From: Altererythrobacter sp. B11
Lineage (GTDB): Bacteria; Pseudomonadota; Alphaproteobacteria; Sphingomonadales; Sphingomonadaceae
NCBI RefSeq assembly: GCF_003569745.1
Contig: NZ_AP018498.1
Span: forward strand, 2,207,001 to 2,271,000
DNA: 64,000 bases
Reading direction: 5' to 3'
Shown: positions 11,491 through 57,631 of the stretch, piece after piece
How positions within the stretch are numbered: the stretch's first letter is position 1
Layout of the letters: the number at the start of each line of letters is the position of its first letter
Program-made: the position numbers and the translations under genes
Notes under the pieces: model-generated
What the model was told of the DNA's origin: nothing
What the model saw: only the letters and a program-made list of their open reading frames with translations
The model's database searches: none

Positions 11491-12617
11491 GCCGGCGCCG
11501 CTTGCGGAGCTTCGAGCGCCCGCAGGATCGTGGCGATGTGGCGGTCCCAGGTAAACAGGTCGGCGGCCCGCGCCGTTGCCGCTTCCGCCATGCGGTGGCG
11601 GCGGGCGGGCTCATCAAGCAGCCCGCGGAGCACCTCGGCCAAGGCATCCGGGTCGTGCCCGTCCACCGCGTGGCCGGAAATCCCTTCCTCGATCAGCTCG
11701 ATCGCGCCGCCCTCGCGGCCCACCACCGGCACGGCGCCGGCCAGCATGGCATCCGCGATGGCAATGCCGAAGCCTTCGAAATCGCGCCCGCCGTCGGCTT
11801 CGACCTGCGGGTGGAGGAAGATGTCGGCGCGGGCATAGAGCTGCGCGGCATGTTCCTCGGTCACGAAGCCGAGGATTTCCACCTGTTCGCCCAGCTCCAG
11901 CTCGGCCGCGAGCGCGCGCAGGGCGGCAAGCTCGGGCCCGCGCCCGGCGATGGCATAGCGGAAGCGGCGGCCTTCCCGGCGCATGGCCGCGCAGGCCCGG
12001 AGGCAGGCGGCGATGTTCTTGCGCGGTTCCAGCCGGCACAGGGAGAGCAGGAATGGCTCGGTTCCAGCCGGATGGGGGGACGCGGGGGAACTGGTGCCCG
12101 ACGTGCCGTTCCACGCCACAATCGGCTCTGGCATGCCCGGTCCCAGTCGCGCCGCCAGCCGGCCGGCGCTGTGATGGCTTACCGCCACGATCCGGCGGGC
12201 GCGGCGGGCGACATGCCGCATCAGGCGCAGGGAAATGCCACCCGCATACATGAACTCGCGACCATGGAAGGTGGTGAAATAGGGCAGGCCCAGCAGCAGC
12301 GGCATCACCGATGTGCGCCAGGTGGTGCCATGCACCAGCAGCGGGGGGCCTGCGCGGCGCAGCTCCTGACGCATGGCCGTGCGGAATCGCAGCGGCACCG
12401 ACACTCCCTTGCCCGCGCCGATATCCACCACCAGCACCGGGCCGACCCGCTCGCGCCGGGGGCCGGCGCTCGTCTGGGTGAACACGGTCACCTCCGCTCC
12501 CGCCTGGGCATAGGCATGCGCCACGCCGCGCGCATAGGTCTGCATCCCGCCTTCGTCGGGGGTGTAGCCCTTGGCCATCACCCACAGGCGGCGGCCCGCA
12601 AGATTACCTGTATCCAT
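11478..12617 (-). CDS. Family 4 glycosyltransferase
   Basis: A 379-residue GT-B glycosyltransferase. The N-terminal acceptor domain has the glycine-rich GYTPDEGGMQTYA, and the C-terminal donor domain has LSLCRLEPRKN, followed by the E-x7-E motif in FEGFGIAIADAMLAG (about residues 281-295) that binds the nucleotide sugar. It should transfer a hexose from a nucleotide donor to a polysaccharide or glycolipid acceptor at the cytoplasmic membrane face. The gene is 8 bases downstream of the TagB/TagF-like gene, so the two are cotranscribed. The divergent flippase gene beyond them suggests one polysaccharide assembly locus. Confidence 0.88.
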   Translation of the reverse strand: MDTGNLAGRRLWVMAKGYTPDEGGMQTYARGVAHAYAQAGAEVTVFTQTSAGPRRERVGPVLVVDIGAGKGVSVPLRFRTAMRQELRRAGPPLLVHGTTWRTSVMPLLLGLPYFTTFHGREFMYAGGISLRLMRHVARRARRIVAVSHHSAGRLAARLGPGMPEPIVAWNGTSGTSSPASPHPAGTEPFLLSLCRLEPRKNIAACLRACAAMRREGRRFRYAIAGRGPELAALRALAAELELGEQVEILGFVTEEHAAQLYARADIFLHPQVEADGGRDFEGFGIAIADAMLAGAVPVVGREGGAIELIEEGISGHAVDGHDPDALAEVLRGLLDEPARRHRMAEAATARAADLFTWDRHIATILRALEAPQAAPAQPS

Positions 12618-12625
12618 TACCGGTC

Positions 12626-13777
12626 CTATGCCACGAATTCGTCGATCGCCTGCGCCGCGCGGCGCGAGGCAGGCTGATCGGTCACCGAAAAGCTGTCGGC
12701 GAACAGCGCGCGCTGGGTGGGGAGATAGTCGCCATGGGTGGCGATTGCCCGGTCAACCTCCGCCAGAATATCGGCCTCCGGCCCGGCAACCGGGCCGGCG
12801 TGCCAATGCGCGAAGGAGGGATCGTCGCGCCAGTCGAAGCCATGCGCGTCGAGGTGGAGCACCGGGCGCGGGTGCAGCAGGAATTCATAGACCTGGCTGC
12901 TCACATCGCCGCAATAGACATCCGCCAGATTGGTATAGCTCATGTCGGTCGCGGCCGGGCTGCCCCGGTCCACCAGAATATGCGGGCATTGCGCCACCCA
13001 CGGATCGACGGGGGCAACGCGGCTGAGGGCCGGCGGGCTGATGGTGACGGTGTAGCGCCGCTGGAACAGCATCACATGCGGCGCGAAGATGAGATTGTAG
13101 CGATCCGACTGCGCGAAGGCGCGCAGCAGCGCCGGCCCCATGCGGTAATAGCTCGAAAGCCGCGGCGAGGGGTGGGGGGCATAGAGCACTGTCGGCCGCG
13201 TGGGATCGGGGAAGGGGCTGGCAATCCGATGCTCCCCATAGAGATCGAACTTGGGATAGCCGGTGACGCGGATGCGTGCCGGGTCCACCCCCGCCTCCGC
13301 CGTCAGCCGCCGCGCGATCTTGGGGCCGGATACCAGCACCAGATCGAAGCGCGCGCTTTCTGGCCCGAAGCCGATCGCCCGATCCCCCGCGCCGTGGCGG
13401 GTGTGGATGATGCGCGGGCTATCGAGGCCATAGCGGGTCTTGAGCAGGAGCGAGGTCTTCTCCGTCACCACCAGTGCCTGGAAGCCGCGGAAGAAATCCA
13501 GATTGTCGCGATAGAGCAGGATCTTGCGCGCGGGGATCAGGCCTTGCAGCGATGCCGCGGCGAAGCGGGAAAGCGGGCGGGTGAGCCCCAGTTCGACGAT
13601 CCGCGCGCGCCCGCCCGCGGCGCCCGCCATCTGCCGCAGCCGCTCTGCCAGCGGGGCGCTGCCTGCGGCCAGCACCACCTCATGCGTGCCGCGCGCCGCC
13701 AGCTCCAGCGCGATCGGCAGGCTATGCGCGATCTGGTGCGACTGGTCATGATTGAAGAGGAAGCAGACGCGCGCCAT
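12626..13777 (-). CDS. TagB/TagF-like (CDP-glycerol glycerophosphotransferase family) protein
   Basis: A 383-residue GT-B protein. The C-terminal half carries TVLYAPHPSPRLSSYY, with the APH motif of the family, and YCGDVSSQVYEFLLHPRPVLHLD region (about residue 289-311), which corresponds to the conserved DxSS...EF...RP segment of CDP-glycerol glycerophosphotransferases. In Gram-positive bacteria these make teichoic acid; in alphaproteobacteria relatives occur in surface polysaccharide loci, where the donor may be CDP-glycerol or another nucleotide-activated polyol. The exact donor is not readable here. It begins the two-gene minus-strand unit and is divergent from the flippase, with 130 bases between start codons in which I see no clear promoter match. 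Confidence 0.72.
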   Translation of the reverse strand: MARVCFLFNHDQSHQIAHSLPIALELAARGTHEVVLAAGSAPLAERLRQMAGAAGGRARIVELGLTRPLSRFAAASLQGLIPARKILLYRDNLDFFRGFQALVVTEKTSLLLKTRYGLDSPRIIHTRHGAGDRAIGFGPESARFDLVLVSGPKIARRLTAEAGVDPARIRVTGYPKFDLYGEHRIASPFPDPTRPTVLYAPHPSPRLSSYYRMGPALLRAFAQSDRYNLIFAPHVMLFQRRYTVTISPPALSRVAPVDPWVAQCPHILVDRGSPAATDMSYTNLADVYCGDVSSQVYEFLLHPRPVLHLDAHGFDWRDDPSFAHWHAGPVAGPEADILAEVDRAIATHGDYLPTQRALFADSFSVTDQPASRRAAQAIDEFVA

Positions 13778-49353: not shown

Positions 49354-52131
49354 TCACGAGCGCAGCCGGTCGATCGACTGCGCCAGGGCAACATAGAGCT
49401 TGCCCATGTCGGAGGAGAGCAGCGTCACCGCCAGCGTATTGCCTTCGCGCGTGGACAGCACCGACCGCAGCATCCCTTCGAAGTCGTGGATGTAGCGGTT
49501 GATCGTCTCGCGAAGCTCCGCATCGTCGCCATAGAGTTCGGCCACAGCCTTACTGTTCTGGTTATCGAGCAGCCGGACCGCACGGCGCGTGAAGATGCCC
49601 CGGTCGCCCCGCAGATAGCTGGCCCACGCCGTATCCGTCACTTCGCTGTCGAGCGCCTTGGCGATATCGATCGCAGCCGAATTGAGACCTTCGGTGATCA
49701 GTGTCATGCGACGCGTGAAATCGCCGTCGACTGTCTCCTCGGCCTGCTCGCGCGCATGCGCCACCCGCCGCTCAAGATTGCCCGCGAGTTCGTTCACCAT
49801 CGCCAGCTGATCGCGCAGCTGGATGGCCGTTTCGCGGCCCGCATCGCCTGCATGCACAGCCGCTTCCTGCAGGTCCATGATCGCCTGCGTGACGTGCTGT
49901 TCCACTGCCTGGCCGATCGCTTCGCTGCTCTCGCTGCCGATGCGCTCGGCCATTTCCCGGATCCGCGCGGCCTGCTCGTCGCTCAGCCCATTGAGCGCCT
50001 GGCCCGCTGCTTCCTGCAGCGTGGCCACCGCTTCCTGCAGTTCCCCCCTGGCTTGGGCGGAGAGCGCCTCAGACTGCGCGGCCAAGGCTGCAAGCCGCTG
50101 CTCCAGCTCGGTCAGTTGCTCGGCCGTGGCTGTGCCGCTGCGCTGCGCCTGATCCACATTGCTCGCAAGCGCTGCGCCCTTGGCGCCCGCCTCGGCGATC
50201 AGATCCTTGAGCGAGCTTGCATGTGCTTCAAAGGCAAGCAGACGCTCCTCCGCTTCACCAATGGCCAGCGGCAGGTCTTCGCGGCTGTGCTGAGCGCCGG
50301 AACGAATGATCTCCAGCAGGCGGACGCTGGAATTGGTGAGCTCGGAAACCTTGTCGCCATTCTCATTGAGGATCGCCCTGCTTTCGGCCAGCTTCTCCGC
50401 CAGCCCGTGCGCGGCATGGGTGAGATTGTCCTGCGTGCGCCGGCCCTGGCTGGCGAGTCGCTCCATCTCGGCGCCGAGTTCGGCAAGCCGCTCCGCCATG
50501 GCCTCGCCCCGTTCGGCCAAGCCTGCCACATGCGCCAGCTGCTCCTCCTGCCGCTCGGCGATCTGTCGATCGAAGCGGGCGAGACGATGCTCCAGCTCCG
50601 CGAGCGAGGCAGCTTCGCGCTCGTTTGCCTGAACATTGCGCTGCTCCAGATGCGCTTCGAAAGCTTCGAACCGCTGGACGATCATGGCATCGACCCGTCC
50701 GGCCTCTTGGCTCAGGGCATCCAGCCGCTTGCGCGCGTTGGCCAGTGCCTGCTGGTCCACGTCCGAAACCTTGCGGATCGCTTCGAACATGCGCTCCTCC
50801 AGCGCTGAAACAGCAGCGGCCCAGGCTTCGGCGGCGTCGGTTTCGCCTTCGCGCAGGATGTCGGAGATGCGCTTTCCTTCCTCCACCAGCTGGGCGAGTC
50901 GGGCGCGCAGCACTTCCAGCGCCGCCTCCTCTGCCGCCTGCACCTCGTGCCGCTGCTGGTCGAGCTCTGCCCCGAGAGCGCGCGCGCGGTGACGCACGGC
51001 CGCCAGCGCAGCCTGCTCTGTGGTCTCCAGTTCGGCCCGGCGGGCGGCCAGCTCGGCGCGGAGGGTGTCGGCACGATCGCGCAGCTGTTCGAGCGCTGCA
51101 TCTTCCGCGCTTTCGGCGTCGCGGCGGCGGTTCTCCAGTTCCTCTTCCAGAGCTGCCGCACGGCGCCGCAGCGCAGCAAAGCTGTCTACCTCACGCCCGT
51201 CGAGCTCGGCGCGGAAGGCCGCGCTGCGTTCGTTGAGCGCGGCGAAGCGCCGCTCAGCGATGTCGCCCAGATGGCTGGCCTGCTGAGCGAACGCCGCCAC
51301 GGCCTCGTCCACCCGCTCGTGCAGCGCGTCCACCTGGCGTCCGCTGGCCTCGCCGAATTCGTTCAGCCGCTTCATCCCGGCGATCATCTCGCCAAGCTGT
51401 TCGCGGGCCACATGGCCAGCATTGCCGATCTGGTTGCTCACATCACGTGCGGAATTGGCGATCACAGGCAGCTCACCGCGCAGGCGATCCATGTTCTCCA
51501 GCGCCGTGCTGCTGACCTTGCCGATGACCTCCACCTGCGCGCCATTGTCGCGGATGAGACCCTGCAACCGATCAGCATGTTCGGAAAGCCGGTCGCTCGC
51601 CACACGGCCAAGGGATTCGAGATCGCGCGACTGGGCGGCGATGAACTCTCGTGCCAGGCTTAGCTCGCGATTGACCGTCGAAAGGCGCGTTTCCAGCTGT
51701 CGCGACTCCTCCGACAGAGAACGCGCTGTGGCAGCGAAGCGTCGTGCCTCTTGCCGGCTGTTACGGACTGCCAACAGCCACAGTGCCACGACCAGCAGGA
51801 CGGGCACGGCCCAGTCCACAATCCAGCCCTGCCACTGCAGGGGTGTGGCGCCGCGGAACATCTCGGCTTGATGGACCCAGCCGAAGAAGCCGGTCCAGCC
51901 GATCACGGCCAGAGCGGCGACGACAGGCACCACCCAGCCGAAGCTGCGCGCTGCGCCTGCTTCCATATCGGCGGCCCAATCGCCGGCCTGCGCGGAGCTA
52001 TCCACCCGTGTCTCCTCCGCCGCCGGCACCTGCTCCTCCACAGCCGCTGCGCCGCCTTCGGACGAAGCCACTTCCGTGCCATCCCTCTGCGATTCGGGGC
52101 CGATTGCCACCAGATTCTTTCTGCCTGCCAT
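49354..52131 (-). CDS. Large coiled-coil protein with two N-terminal membrane helices
   Basis: A 925-residue protein. Residues 1-62 form an acidic, disordered cytoplasmic segment; helices at about 64-86 and 104-122 make a hairpin in the inner membrane; residues 125-800 are almost continuous heptad-type coiled coil rich in Ala, Glu, Arg and Gln, with repeated blocks (for example ALRRRAAALEEELENRRRDAE followed by similar AxLRxELAARRAELE units). The C-terminal 120 residues (DGDFTRRMTLITEGLNSAA...) are a more globular, conserved-looking helical domain. No enzyme motif. The layout resembles the Caulobacter polarity factor TipN (two N-terminal membrane helices plus a long coiled coil), but I cannot show homology from sequence alone. 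It is divergent from the Hpt-like gene. Confidence 0.82.
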   Translation of the reverse strand: MAGRKNLVAIGPESQRDGTEVASSEGGAAAVEEQVPAAEETRVDSSAQAGDWAADMEAGAARSFGWVVPVVAALAVIGWTGFFGWVHQAEMFRGATPLQWQGWIVDWAVPVLLVVALWLLAVRNSRQEARRFAATARSLSEESRQLETRLSTVNRELSLAREFIAAQSRDLESLGRVASDRLSEHADRLQGLIRDNGAQVEVIGKVSSTALENMDRLRGELPVIANSARDVSNQIGNAGHVAREQLGEMIAGMKRLNEFGEASGRQVDALHERVDEAVAAFAQQASHLGDIAERRFAALNERSAAFRAELDGREVDSFAALRRRAAALEEELENRRRDAESAEDAALEQLRDRADTLRAELAARRAELETTEQAALAAVRHRARALGAELDQQRHEVQAAEEAALEVLRARLAQLVEEGKRISDILREGETDAAEAWAAAVSALEERMFEAIRKVSDVDQQALANARKRLDALSQEAGRVDAMIVQRFEAFEAHLEQRNVQANEREAASLAELEHRLARFDRQIAERQEEQLAHVAGLAERGEAMAERLAELGAEMERLASQGRRTQDNLTHAAHGLAEKLAESRAILNENGDKVSELTNSSVRLLEIIRSGAQHSREDLPLAIGEAEERLLAFEAHASSLKDLIAEAGAKGAALASNVDQAQRSGTATAEQLTELEQRLAALAAQSEALSAQARGELQEAVATLQEAAGQALNGLSDEQAARIREMAERIGSESSEAIGQAVEQHVTQAIMDLQEAAVHAGDAGRETAIQLRDQLAMVNELAGNLERRVAHAREQAEETVDGDFTRRMTLITEGLNSAAIDIAKALDSEVTDTAWASYLRGDRGIFTRRAVRLLDNQNSKAVAELYGDDAELRETINRYIHDFEGMLRSVLSTREGNTLAVTLLSSDMGKLYVALAQSIDRLRS

Positions 52132-52200: not shown

Positions 52201-52506
52201 ATGGTGGATGAGTCGGGAAATTTCGATTCGCATCTGGCGGCTGCGGCCGGCCAGGATTTGGGGCTGCTGGCGGAATTGCGCGCATGTTTCGTGGACAGCC
52301 TCACCCAGCATGTCGATCTTCTCGGCCGCGCGCGCTGCGATGCCAATTGGATCATGGCGGCGCTGCGGCTGAAGGGCCTTGGGGCGACCTTCCATTCCTC
52401 GGAACTGATCGATCTGGCCGGGGAGGCGGTGGACGGCGCCCCGGGTGACCCGGTGGTGCTGCGCAAGCTCGGCCGCTTTCGCGACCAGTTCACGACGAGC
52501 CATTGA
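52201..52506 (+). CDS. Hpt-like domain protein lacking the phospho-histidine
   Basis: A 101-residue helical protein resembling a histidine-containing phosphotransfer domain. The core reads AALRLKGLGATFHSSELIDLAGE (about 53-75), in the place where Hpt proteins have (A)AH-x-LKG...GA...L. The residue at the phosphorylated His position is Leu55 (codon 52363-52365), while the Lys-Gly that follows is kept. It could not carry phosphate in the normal way, so it may act as a binding partner or inhibitor in a phosphorelay. It is the first of four plus-strand genes (52201-56131), 69 bases from the divergent coiled-coil gene. Confidence 0.6.
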   Translation: MVDESGNFDSHLAAAAGQDLGLLAELRACFVDSLTQHVDLLGRARCDANWIMAALRLKGLGATFHSSELIDLAGEAVDGAPGDPVVLRKLGRFRDQFTTSH

Positions 52507-52583
52507 GCGCCCGCGCGCATCGCTTGCGCTCGAGGGGGCTGAACGCCTAGTCACTCCCCCTTCGACAGATGGGAGCGATCCGG

Positions 52584-53759
52584 GTGCGTGCCGCCCTTAT
52601 TTCGATAGCAGGACAGCCGCGTAATGCGGCAGGCGATGCGCCTCTCGCAGTAGCCGGTCGTTCGCTGGCTCTGCGCCAGCTGGACCTCGCCCGCGCGGCG
52701 GGGTGCGAGCGGATCATCGGCTTCGGCGGCGGAGCAGGCGGCGATGCGCTGGCCTTGCAGCACGCCGCCGAGGATGCGGGGCTGCGGTTTCAATCCATTG
52801 GCGGTGCACATGGCTTGCTCGGCGCTGTGCGTGCAGCTGACGAATTGCTCGTGCTGGCTCCCGGACTTTTCGCGGAGGATCGGCGCGGACTGGAGCAATT
52901 GAGGCGCGGTGGGGGTGTGCTGACGCTGCCTGCTGGGCCGGCCATTGCAGCAGGCTTCGAACGGATCGACCTCGAACGGGCCTGGGCCGGTGCCCTGCTG
53001 GTTCCGGGTGGACTGGTCGAACGGCTCGCCGACCTGCCGGATGACAGCAATCCCTTCGCGGCCCTGCTGCGGATCGGGCTCCAGGCCCGTCTCCCCGAGC
53101 GTGCGCTGTCGGAGGAGGTTCTGGTGGAGGGTAGCTGGTCCCTGCCGCGCAGCGACAAGGACGCGCGCGATCTGGAAGACAGCTGGCTGGATCGGCACCA
53201 GTCGCGTGGGCCCAGTTCCTCTCTCGCCGGAAGCGCCGCCCTCCTACTGCTGCGGCCGCTGGCGGGGCAATTGCTCGCCCGGCCGCGTGCGCTGCCGGGG
53301 GCGCTGGGACTGACGGGGCTGGCGATCGCTGCGGCGGCCGGTGCTGCGGCAGCCGGTTTTCCAGCCGTGGGCTTCCTCCTGCTCGCCATGGGCGCTGTCG
53401 GCATGCCCTTTTGCGCCGGGCTCGCGCAGCTGAACGCCGCGCCCTTCGGCCAAGCGCGCACTGCGCCCGTTCTGGTGCTGGAGCGGCTGTTAGACCTTAG
53501 CCTGGCCGTATGTGGCGCATCAGCCATAGAGGGTGGTGCCCTCCATGCGCTGTTCCCGCCGCTCGTACTGGTGGCCAGTCTGCACGCCGTGAATCCGGGA
53601 AGCGCCAAGCCGCCGGTGTCGTTGCTGGGGGACCGGGCGGTCCTCTCCCTGTTCCTCGCCAGCGCTGCAGCGTTCGGGCTGGCGGAAGCGGCACTGATGT
53701 TGCTGGCCCTTGCAGTGCTTGCCTTCGGCGTCGTAGCGCGATGGCGGAATAGCGGCTAA
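52584..53759 (+). CDS. Membrane protein resembling a degenerate IPCT-DIPPS fusion
   Basis: A 391-residue protein. Residues 1-170 resemble a sugar-nucleotide transferase but lack the LAGG...R/K signature (reading RAALISIAGQPRNAAGDAPLAVAG); residues about 195-235 (SDKDARDLEDSWLDRHQSR...LLLLRPLAGQLLARP) resemble the linker and start of a CDP-alcohol phosphatidyltransferase, and the remainder has five to six membrane helices. The catalytic D-G-x2-A-R motif expected after helix 2 is not found; instead the region reads GMPFCAGLAQL. The order matches the archaeal/bacterial inositol-phosphate cytidylyltransferase/DIPP-synthase fusion, so this may be an inactive relative. GTG 52584 was chosen because GGAG lies 8 bases before it; ATG 52569 in frame is possible. 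Confidence 0.6.
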   Translation: MRAALISIAGQPRNAAGDAPLAVAGRSLALRQLDLARAAGCERIIGFGGGAGGDALALQHAAEDAGLRFQSIGGAHGLLGAVRAADELLVLAPGLFAEDRRGLEQLRRGGGVLTLPAGPAIAAGFERIDLERAWAGALLVPGGLVERLADLPDDSNPFAALLRIGLQARLPERALSEEVLVEGSWSLPRSDKDARDLEDSWLDRHQSRGPSSSLAGSAALLLLRPLAGQLLARPRALPGALGLTGLAIAAAAGAAAAGFPAVGFLLLAMGAVGMPFCAGLAQLNAAPFGQARTAPVLVLERLLDLSLAVCGASAIEGGALHALFPPLVLVASLHAVNPGSAKPPVSLLGDRAVLSLFLASAAAFGLAEAALMLLALAVLAFGVVARWRNSG

Positions 53760-53821
53760 CGCGCATTTAACCTTGGTCTGCTACGGCAGGCCGATGAGGC
53801 GAACCCCATGACGGAGCAGGC

Positions 53822-54748
53822 GTGAGCGAGGTTGAAGGCATCCTGCGCGAGAGGCTTGCACGCGATGGTGCGGTGCTTGCCGGCGTCGCCCCGGTGCTTC
53901 GCCACCTGCTGCGCGGCGACGCGGGCGAGTTGTTTGCCGACGAGGTGGTGGCCCGCGTCCGCGGCATGCTGGCGGACCTTGCCGAGCAATTGCTGCTTGC
54001 GCTCGCTGTGCATGCCGATGTTCCCGATCGCGATGCCTTCCTCGCGGCGCAGTCGGATCATTTGATCGACCGTATGGCTGCAGATGGCGGGCTGCTGGGG
54101 CATGTTCACGGGCTGGCTCTGGAGGGCCGGCTGACGGAGCAGCTGCAACAGCGCAGTGGTATCGACGGCGTGCTGACCCCGCTGGTGCAGGATCTCGCCG
54201 CATCTCCGGAGCCGGAAATTTCAGCGCGCGCGATGGCATTTCTCGCTTCGCAAGCTCGCTTCGTGCAGCAGCAAAGGCGCATGGACCTGCCCCTGGGGGA
54301 GTTGCCGGGGGATTATTTCCACCGGGCCCTGTGCGCGCTCGCTGCTCATGCCGAGGCGGCCGATTGCGGCGGCGCTGCCGAGCCCGCCTGCGCGGCCCTG
54401 CGCGAAACGTTCGAGGAGGCCCGTAGCCGACTAGGGCTCGCGGCCCGCATCCTCCTGGGGCTGGGAGAGGATATCGCGCCGGCGCTGCAGGTGGAGCAAG
54501 CCGGAGTTGCCCTTTTCACCACGGCGCTGGCGCTGGTGACCGAGCAGGAACGCACGATGGTGTTGCTGTCCTTCGGGCAGGCAGCGTCGGACCGGCTTGC
54601 CGTTGCGCTCCGGACCGCCGGGCTTGACCGCGACGGCCTCCATACGCAGCTTTTCTTCATCAAGCCGGATGCCGATGTCGTTCGCGGTCTCGATCTGATC
54701 GACGGCGACACCGCAAGCGCGCTACTGCGCGAAGAGAGCGGGGCCTGA
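53822..54748 (+). CDS. Unrecognised helical protein between membrane pseudoenzyme and kinase-like genes
   Basis: A 308-residue, all-alpha, Leu/Ala-rich protein with no signal peptide or membrane segment. Repeating helical blocks (VLRHLLRGDAGELFADEVVARVRGMLADLAEQLLLAL; ALFTTALALVTEQERTMVLLSF) suggest a HEAT- or DUF2336-like helical bundle, but no family signature is clear. It starts with GTG at 53822, 62 bases after the previous stop, and ends 3 bases before the kinase-like gene, so the two are cotranscribed. A partner role for the kinase is inferred from position. Confidence 0.75.
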   Translation: MSEVEGILRERLARDGAVLAGVAPVLRHLLRGDAGELFADEVVARVRGMLADLAEQLLLALAVHADVPDRDAFLAAQSDHLIDRMAADGGLLGHVHGLALEGRLTEQLQQRSGIDGVLTPLVQDLAASPEPEISARAMAFLASQARFVQQQRRMDLPLGELPGDYFHRALCALAAHAEAADCGGAAEPACAALRETFEEARSRLGLAARILLGLGEDIAPALQVEQAGVALFTTALALVTEQERTMVLLSFGQAASDRLAVALRTAGLDRDGLHTQLFFIKPDADVVRGLDLIDGDTASALLREESGA

Positions 54749-54751
54749 GCG

Positions 54752-56131
54752 ATGTCGGGAACGACGATCCACATCGCCCGCGCGCGCACGGATACGGGCG
54801 ACCGGCTGATCGAAGCAGAAGAACCGCTGGCCAGTCTTCAGCGGCGATTGGGTGGCGAGCTTCCCGGCGTGGTGGCCGCGCCCGCTCTGCTCGAGCTAAT
54901 TCGCAAGGCGCGCCTTTATGGACTGCGTTTTGCAAGACCGATCCGCGCGCAGGACGGGGCGGAGCGGATTACGGCCTGGGCGGAAGTGGTGCCCGATGCA
55001 GACGGCTGCGCCATCAGCATGTCCAACTGGCACGTCGCTCCCCTTTCGCCCGCCGAGCTGCAGAAGACGGCCGAACGCCGCTCGAGCATCCTCCGTCAGT
55101 CAGCGGAGCTCTCCGCAAGGTTGGGGCCGGAGCAGGAATTGCTCGCGGTGGAGAGCCGCTGTGTCGATTTGGCAGACTTGTCCAGCCGGATGGAGCTGGG
55201 GCGCGGCCGACGCTGGACCGAATTCGTCGGTCTCGCGGGCGCCGAAGGAGGCCAGAAGCAGAACCTTCATTGGCGCCTGTTGGACGGCGCACGGCTGACG
55301 ATCGACGGATCATCGCGCAGCTGGACCGCGCATCTCATTCCGCTAGGGGCTGCCGCACCCGGCCGAGATGGCTTCGAACTGCATCTGGTTGCGGATGAGC
55401 CCCCGCTTGCGGAGCACGTCCCGCCAATGGTCGGCGCGACGAGGCAGGCCATGACCGCTGCCCTTGGCCGGGAACTCGCCCCCGTGCTGCGGCAGCCGGT
55501 GGCCCGGATCATCGCCAATGCGGAGACGATCCGGACGCAGCTCGCCGGTCCGCTGGCGGAGGAATACAGCAATTACGCCGCAGACATCGCGACAGCCGGC
55601 GAGCATCTGCTGGCCTTGATCGACGACCTTGTCGACCTTGAAGTGGTGGAGGACGAAGATTTCAGTACCGCCCCCGACCATATTGACCTGGCCGATGTCG
55701 CGCGGCGGGCGGCGGGCATTCTCGGCATGCGGGCGCGGGAGCGCGGGATAGGCATAGATGCCCCCAAGCCTGACGAGAGTGCGCCGGCAGTGGCCGAGTT
55801 CCGCCGCGTGCTGCAGATCCTGCTCAATCTCGTGGGGAATGCCATCCGCTACACGCCGGAAGGTTCGCAGGTTTGGCTTCGCGTCGAGAGCGAAGGCGCA
55901 ATTGCCCGGCTTGTCGTGGCGGATCAGGGCGAAGGCCTCTCCGAGGACCAGCAGACGCGAATTTTCGAGAAGTTCGAGCGCCTAGGCCGGACAGGCGATG
56001 GCGGATCGGGTCTCGGGCTGTATATCTCGCGGCGCCTTGCCCGCGCGATGGGCGGTGAACTTCGGGTGGAAAGCGCGCCCGGGCAGGGCGCTCGTTTCAT
56101 ACTGGACCTGCCGGCCGATCCCGAGGGCTGA
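54752..56131 (+). CDS. Histidine kinase-like protein with proline at the phospho-acceptor site
   Basis: A 459-residue cytoplasmic protein. The N-terminal 220 residues lack membrane helices and have a mixed fold that could be a PAS-like sensor. Residues about 235-300 form a dimerisation domain: GPLAEEYSNYAADIATAGEHLLALIDDLVDLE matches HisKA well, but the H-box HELRTP is PVLRQP (Pro244, codon 55481-55483). The HATPase_c domain (about 345-455) is intact: N-box LLNLVGNAIRYTPEG, G1 VADQGEGLSE, F-box IFEKFERLG, G2 GGSGLGLYIS. It can probably bind ATP but not autophosphorylate on His. It ends the operon; the next gene is convergent. Confidence 0.85.
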   Translation: MSGTTIHIARARTDTGDRLIEAEEPLASLQRRLGGELPGVVAAPALLELIRKARLYGLRFARPIRAQDGAERITAWAEVVPDADGCAISMSNWHVAPLSPAELQKTAERRSSILRQSAELSARLGPEQELLAVESRCVDLADLSSRMELGRGRRWTEFVGLAGAEGGQKQNLHWRLLDGARLTIDGSSRSWTAHLIPLGAAAPGRDGFELHLVADEPPLAEHVPPMVGATRQAMTAALGRELAPVLRQPVARIIANAETIRTQLAGPLAEEYSNYAADIATAGEHLLALIDDLVDLEVVEDEDFSTAPDHIDLADVARRAAGILGMRARERGIGIDAPKPDESAPAVAEFRRVLQILLNLVGNAIRYTPEGSQVWLRVESEGAIARLVVADQGEGLSEDQQTRIFEKFERLGRTGDGGSGLGLYISRRLARAMGGELRVESAPGQGARFILDLPADPEG

Positions 56132-56344: not shown

Positions 56345-57631
56345 TCAGCGCTTCTCCACCGGCACGTAATCGCGCTGCGTCGGCCCTGTGTAGAGCTGGC
56401 GTGGGCGACCGATCACCTGGCCGGGATCGGAGATCATCTCGTTCCACTGCGCCACCCAGCCGACCGTGCGGGCAAGGGCGAAGAGGGCAGTGAACATAGT
56501 GGTCGGGAAGCCGATGGCGGAGAGGATGACGCCCGAGTAGAAGTCCACGTTGGGGAACAGCTTCTTCTCGACGAAATAGTCGTCCTTCAGCGCCAGTTCC
56601 TCGAGCCGCAGGGCGGTTTCGAACACCGGATCGGTCACGTTGAGCGCGTCGAACACCTCGCGCACGGTCTTCTGCATCACCGTGGCGCGCGGATCGTAGT
56701 TCTTGTACACGCGGTGGCCGAAGCCCATCAGGCGGAAGGGATCGTTCTTGTCCTTCGCCCGCTCGATGTAATGGGGAATGCGGTCGGGCGTGCCGATCTC
56801 GCGCAGCATGTTCAGCGCCGCTTCGTTGGCACCGCCATGCGCGGGGCCCCACAGGCAGGCAATGCCTGCCGCGATGCAGGCGAAGGGGTTCGCGCCGGAG
56901 GAACCGGCAAGTCGGACCGTAGAAGTCGAGGCGTTCTGCTCGTGATCGGCATGGAGGATGAAGATCCGGTCCATCGCCTTTTCCACCGCCGGAAGCACCT
57001 CATATTCCTCGGCCGGGACGCCGAAGGTCATGCGCAGGAAATTGCCGGTGTAGCTCAGCGAATTGGTCGGCTGCATGAAAGGCTGGCCGATCGAATATTT
57101 GAACGCCATGGCCGCGATCGTCGGCATCTTGGCGATCAGCCGGTGGCTGCTGATCCGGCGATGCTCCGGATCGGAAATATCCGTGCTGTCGTGATAGAAG
57201 GCCGAAAGCGCACCCACCACGCCGCACATGATCGCCATGGGATGCGCATCGCGGCGGAAGCCCTGGTAGAACTGCCGCAGCTGGTCGTGCAGCATGGTGT
57301 GGCGGGTGATCGTGTAGGTGAAAGTGTCCAGGTCATCCTGGCTCGGCAGTTCGCCGTTCAGCAGCAGATAGGCCACTTCCATGAAGCTGGAATGTTCGGC
57401 CAGCTGCCCGATCGGATAGCCGCGGTGAAGAAGGACACCTTCCTCGCCGTCGATATAGGTCAGCGCGCTCTCGCAGGACGCGGTGGACTTGTAGCCCGGG
57501 TCGAAGGTGAACATCCCGGTGGTGCCATAGAGCTTGCGGATATCGACCACATTGGGCCCGCAAGTGCCTTCCATGATCGGGAAGTCGAAATCCTGCCCCC
57601 CGGCCGACAGTTGTGCCTGCTTGTCCGACAA
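56345..57631 (-). CDS. gltA: Citrate synthase
   Basis: A 428-residue type II (hexameric, Gram-negative) citrate synthase that condenses oxaloacetate and acetyl-CoA. The catalytic His residues are in [12 protein letters not shown] and [10 protein letters not shown], and the catalytic Asp is in FPNVDFYSG. Residues 1-45 make the N-terminal beta-domain typical of NADH-regulated enzymes. The start is TTG at 57631: it has a perfect AAGGAG 7 bases upstream and MSDKQAQL follows, with no ATG nearby. The gene follows gltX by 26 bases on the same strand. Confidence 0.97.

Follow-up and report, generated by a model that had tools for sequence, protein, structure and literature searches.

A conserved operon of the Sphingomonadaceae encodes a histidine kinase-like and an Hpt-like protein that both lack the phospho-accepting histidine

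Pseudokinases such as DivL and pseudo-HPts such as AHP6 are already known, one at a time. DivL of Caulobacter, itself an alphaproteobacterial protein, combines HisKA and HATPase_c domains without a phospho-histidine and keeps all of its ATP boxes, yet it is without activity and works by binding (PMC4211667). AHP6 of Arabidopsis is a conserved HPt that lacks the acceptor histidine and represses a relay (PMC3572949). A third case is ChrS of C. glutamicum, an inactive histidine kinase that acts with another kinase, HrrS, as a heterodimer (PMC9491836). According to a 2010 survey the Sphingomonadales keep CckA-ChpT-CtrA, with the DivJ-PleC-DivK system degenerate or missing (PMC2877005), and a rewired regulator is therefore plausible in this order.

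The window examined here, a stretch of 64,000 nucleotides from the 3.84-Mb chromosome of Altererythrobacter sp. B11, carries four co-directional open reading frames on the forward strand, hpt (52201..52506), mem (52569..53759), hel (53822..54748) and hk (54752..56131), with intergenic gaps of 62, 62 and 3 bp, exactly where the original prediction had placed a four-gene operon. The start of a fifth gene, coil (49354..52131, reverse strand), lies 69 bp away in divergent orientation; it had been proposed as a possible associate of the operon, and it is indeed its syntenic neighbour in most loci. The gene order in the family is RNase J, a DUF1467-like gene and coil (reverse strand), then hpt, mem, hel and hk (forward strand), then gltA and gltX (reverse strand). 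The citrate synthase gene gltA (56345-57631 of the window) is a constant convergent neighbour of the operon; a citrate synthase acts as a cell-cycle checkpoint regulator in Caulobacter (PMC7083601), but the adjacency is probably a coincidence.

The kinase-like protein hk (459 aa) matched HisKA (E 6.6e-7) and HATPase_c (E 1.2e-27) in a Pfam/NCBIfam scan, and a search for hydrophobic segments along its length found none. In alignment its H-box reads PVLRQPV in place of HELRTPL, the position of the histidine being occupied by Pro244 (codon 55481..55483, forward strand), and the window protein has the intact N, G1, F and G2 set that had been read from it. None of 118 sequences from the Sphingomonadaceae (the GTDB family, which includes Erythrobacter, Novosphingobium, Croceibacterium, Aurantiacibacter and others) has a histidine at this site, where one half of the family has Pro and the other P, R, A, G, S, T, Q, E or N. 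The Glu that follows the H-box histidine and the Thr/Asn at +4 are kinase and phosphatase residues, and they too are replaced, by V and Q, in 89/95 and 88/95 sequences respectively. The key residues of the ATP-binding domain (N, D.G, F and G.G) are present in 95/95 of the hk sequences scored. The most conserved stretches of hk are DHp helices 1 and 2, including the motif IIANAETI, notwithstanding the loss of the phosphate site, and the DHp pattern GPL..Y..Y..DI..G.HLL is that of PleC/DivJ-like kinases, the best matches of hk outside its own group.

Retention of the ATP-binding residues while other parts of hk drift would be expected if the protein still performed phosphate chemistry in trans, phosphorylating the DHp of a heterodimer partner or some other acceptor. 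The ChrS-HrrS heterodimer provides a precedent for such an arrangement, and the DHp of hk does contain an invariant histidine, His285. His285 was considered as an alternative acceptor and rejected: the active kinases of sister families carry the same SGQHLL motif, and it is therefore no substitute. With the H-box histidine, the adjacent Glu and the Thr at +4 all replaced, and with DivL inactive despite its full set of boxes, chemistry in trans seems unlikely.

The loss of the histidine in the Hpt-like protein hpt (101 aa) follows a similar pattern. Its residue 55 is the Leu originally noted, within A-A-L-R-L-K-G (codon 52363..52365, forward strand), and a profile-profile alignment (hhalign, E 2e-8) places it on the histidine of the sister-family Hpts. 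A histidine occupies this site in 2/90 loci only (84 distinct, a few loci representing one genome twice), the other residues including M, L, Q, W and R. In those two loci (L112 and L159) the motif is HRLKG and the kinases are without their histidine; in L159, hel is missing between mem and hk. His65 was also considered as an alternative Hpt acceptor and rejected, being absent from the more distant half of the family. Neither a Pfam Hpt match for the window protein in the Pfam/NCBIfam scan nor a credible match in a PDB sequence search with the hpt and hel profiles was found, and three sister-family orthologues of hpt exceed the Pfam Hpt cut-off. The AF2 model of hpt (pLDDT 89), a helical bundle, has HptB (7c1i) as its best VIA match (Z 11.9, 97 of 101 residues, rmsd 2.3), and the 21 top rows are all HPt, Ypd1 or CheA-P1 structures; helical bundles score easily in such comparisons, though unrelated bundles rank lower here. 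Judging from its position beside coil and from the profile alignment, we take hpt to be orthologous to the histidine-bearing Hpts of sister families.

Of the two proteins encoded between hpt and hk, mem (396 aa) has an NTP-transferase-like N-terminus and a CDP-alcohol-transferase-like membrane C-terminus. One of its profiles (A2) weakly matches 4mnd, a bifunctional inositol-phosphate cytidylyltransferase/DIPP synthase (IPCT/DIPP synthase; E 5.8e-4), and one orthologue matches NTP_transf_3 with a score below the cut-off. In contrast to that enzyme, the CDP-alcohol phosphotransferase motif D..DG..AR is found in 0/113 mem orthologues, in agreement with the description of mem as a degenerate membrane pseudoenzyme. 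The divergent coil protein (925 aa) has, as judged by hydropathy, hydrophobic segments near residues 59-125, and further a long coiled coil and a very conserved C-terminal domain that is widespread in Alphaproteobacteria; in architecture it resembles TipN of Caulobacter, of which it may or may not be a homologue.

The helical protein hel (308 aa, GTG start) had been called unrecognised, and this has to be revised. The Pfam/NCBIfam scan gave nothing useful for the window hpt, mem and hel proteins, hel itself scoring no direct Pfam match, but five syntenic hel orthologues pass the cut-off of PF10098, DUF2336 (best E 8e-30), and the hel profile matches the DUF2336 profile (E 3.5e-11). Its AF2 model (m4f4c726de88b, pLDDT 93) is all-helical, and a Foldseek/VIA comparison with the PDB gave no fold match (best Z 3.8). 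A literature search for DUF2336 found no paper; the family now gains a conserved partner, a histidine kinase. In two loci from other alphaproteobacterial families (L177 and L179) a DUF2336 gene lies immediately upstream of a histidine-bearing PleC/DivJ-like kinase gene, and partnership with kinases may be a general property of DUF2336. In the sister families f4 and f8 (L312, L313, L315-L317) a DUF2336 paralogue converges on coil at its 3' end, which is a second DUF2336-coil link.

A search of close relatives showed the operon to be syntenic across the Sphingomonadaceae, the complete gene order from RNase J to gltX being found in 62/94 loci. Most of the incomplete loci are truncated where a contig stops, are without hpt (14) or have no mem that could be found (4), so that neither gene is obligatory. 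In the 14 loci without hpt the coil and mem starts are separated by 157-218 bp, and hpt has therefore gone from that place. The more distant half of the family keeps the kinase, and some of its genomes are without an adjacent coil. What is conserved among relatives is the absence of the histidines rather than the substitutions themselves, as neither Leu nor Pro is fixed. Nei-Gojobori comparisons of close pairs gave dN/dS values of 0.03-0.11 in hk, 0-0.16 in hpt, 0.03-0.16 in hel and 0.05-0.21 in mem, with a maximum of 0.22 over all genes, which indicates purifying selection. The pair of histidine-less phosphorelay proteins first seen in a single window is therefore a family-wide pair of pseudo-versions under purifying selection, and decay specific to this strain is ruled out by the relatives and by dN/dS. 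A sequencing or annotation error can be given next to no credence when the same state occurs in over 100 genomes. It could also be argued that the operon is a decaying relic that hitch-hikes between essential genes, given the loss of hpt and mem in some lineages and the fast evolution of hel and mem; the low dN/dS, the conservation of the ATP site and the DHp over the family, and a kinase gene that is open in nearly all loci read make this very improbable.

The origin of the operon becomes apparent outside the family. When the kinase profile was searched against the remaining families of the order (f2-f8), its best match was a kinase in 20/21 sister genomes, and 20/20 of these kinases keep an HELRTPL-type H-box. 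In 18/20 loci the gene immediately upstream of the sister kinase gene, on the same strand, is a DUF2336 homologue of hel. Earlier kinase trees without the sister families had left the pseudokinase unplaced. In a tree of 42 rows, 1) the pseudokinases form one clade (support 100/100) with a long stem (length 1.87); 2) this clade is nested among the histidine-bearing kinases of sister families (98/86); and 3) pseudokinases and sister kinases together stand apart from the DivL and CckA of this genome. Constraining all sister matches to one clade with the pseudokinases gave a p-AU of 0.058, because one match without a DUF2336 neighbour (L274) falls outside.

In the sister families coil sits elsewhere in the genome, apart from the DUF2336-kinase locus. 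The Hpt divergent from it has an intact histidine in 9/9 cases where an Hpt was found, and after it usually come a 183-aa response regulator and a second Hpt-like protein with AHDMKG. The sister families share this cluster of coil, Hpt, response regulator and second Hpt-like protein (AHDMKGQGGTFG) in strongly conserved form (L302-L318), its regulators being 61-86% identical, and no description of it was found; in one case (L315, 12217-13047) a flagellin gene lies near it. The regulator is present in 20/24 sister genomes versus 1/35 Sphingomonadaceae, and the window's genome has no orthologue of it. Every case read that has the regulator also has the histidines; without the regulator, no family member read has the kinase histidine, and the Hpt histidine occurs in two loci only, an association that amounts to one transition and one intermediate genome, that is, to one evolutionary event and not many. 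Whether relatives keep both histidines, a point on which the original prediction had staked its reading, therefore has a divided answer: relatives within the family lack both, but the sister families keep both, and the loss is for that reason an old event of the lineage that accompanied the loss of the response regulator.

The intermediate genome (G009) is the sole carrier of the regulator among the 35 Sphingomonadaceae and has a histidine in both kinase and Hpt, with HELRTPL in the kinase and AHRLK in the Hpt, the latter taken from a frameshifted stretch; it is a single frameshift-rich draft, 86% complete with 7% contamination. A 19-kb stretch of it (L329) holds coil, Hpt, regulator, second Hpt, a mem-like gene, a flagellar hook gene, DUF2336 and kinase. 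As the Hpt-regulator and DUF2336-kinase loci of the sister families are apart, it is mainly from this genome that a single relay can be inferred. The hook gene is flgK-like (11621-13342) and lies between mem and DUF2336; together with the flagellin gene mentioned above, it is a hint of motility.

These comparisons suggest that a signalling chain that once passed phosphate turned into a machine working by binding, and an ancestral phosphorelay was probably converted, at the base of the Sphingomonadaceae, into a module that does not use the kinase or Hpt histidines. The ancestral parts would have been a DUF2336 protein with a histidine-bearing PleC/DivJ-like sensor kinase and, beside the membrane coiled-coil protein, a histidine-bearing Hpt, a response regulator and a second Hpt. 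Loss of the regulator and of both phospho-histidines would then have followed, with the Hpt, DUF2336 and kinase genes gathered into one operon with the degenerate membrane protein, next to coil in most of the family. Since both proteins are selected pseudo-versions with the ATP motifs kept, they are best understood as working by binding and not by passing phosphate through histidines of their own. More tentatively, at what we would put slightly short of even chances, the whole phosphorelay may have lost its phosphate chemistry at the family base (kinase histidine, Hpt histidine and response regulator) and, with its scaffold gene, its ATP-binding domain and DUF2336 as partner all retained, become an ATP-sensing assembly whose signalling depends on binding alone. 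The pseudokinase would be a dimer shaped by its ATP-binding domain, on which its ancestral partners, DUF2336 and the pseudo-HPt, would dock, and which coil and mem may anchor at the membrane. All four operon products may thereby form the single complex first proposed; hpt, being missing from some loci, is therefore dispensable there.

Such a pseudokinase could act by binding another kinase or regulator, as DivL does, with DivK and CckA as candidates. In a specific form of this explanation, the DHp of hk would dock a phosphorylated DivK-type regulator and relay its state to CckA. The PleC/DivJ-like DHp pattern agrees with this, as does the presence in this genome of DivK-, DivL-, CckA- and ChpT-like genes (so named from H-box and receiver sequence), but the trees gave hk no clear placement relative to the entire PleC/DivJ group and a Tyr-bearing DivL-like protein is already encoded elsewhere in the genome (G000:C1:2106228), which leaves this specific form possible but rather doubtful. 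The genome also encodes a 610-aa kinase (G000:C1:2970728, L191) with an intact HELRTPV, a GP..Y DHp and a very long branch, which is possibly its PleC/DivJ-type kinase.

None of the papers searched describes a joint loss of the phospho-histidines of a kinase and its Hpt, with the regulator gone as well and both proteins under selection across a family. If the proposal is true, an ATP-sensing assembly without phosphate transfer has been derived from a whole phosphorelay. Active orthologues, an intermediate genome and pseudo-forms coexist within one order, the Sphingomonadales, and the change from phosphorelay to phosphate-free module is therefore testable by orthologue swaps. Among known systems, DivL is taken as the best model for the action of hk and AHP6 as that for a pseudo-HPt, but DivL has a Tyr in place of the histidine where hk has Pro or other residues, several PAS domains, and no partner Hpt with a lost histidine. 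AHP6 is a plant protein that opposes a relay with active paralogous HPts and is not paired with a pseudokinase, and the defect of ChrS arose recently in the laboratory, by mutation of its CA domain, whereas hk has an intact CA domain and no histidine. The DUF2336-kinase pair and the coil-Hpt-regulator-Hpt cluster of the sister families are direct orthologues of the window genes by synteny, tree and profile, and differ in having kept the response regulator and the histidines of kinase and Hpt. The operon resembles DivL and AHP6 in its probable mechanism but is neither.
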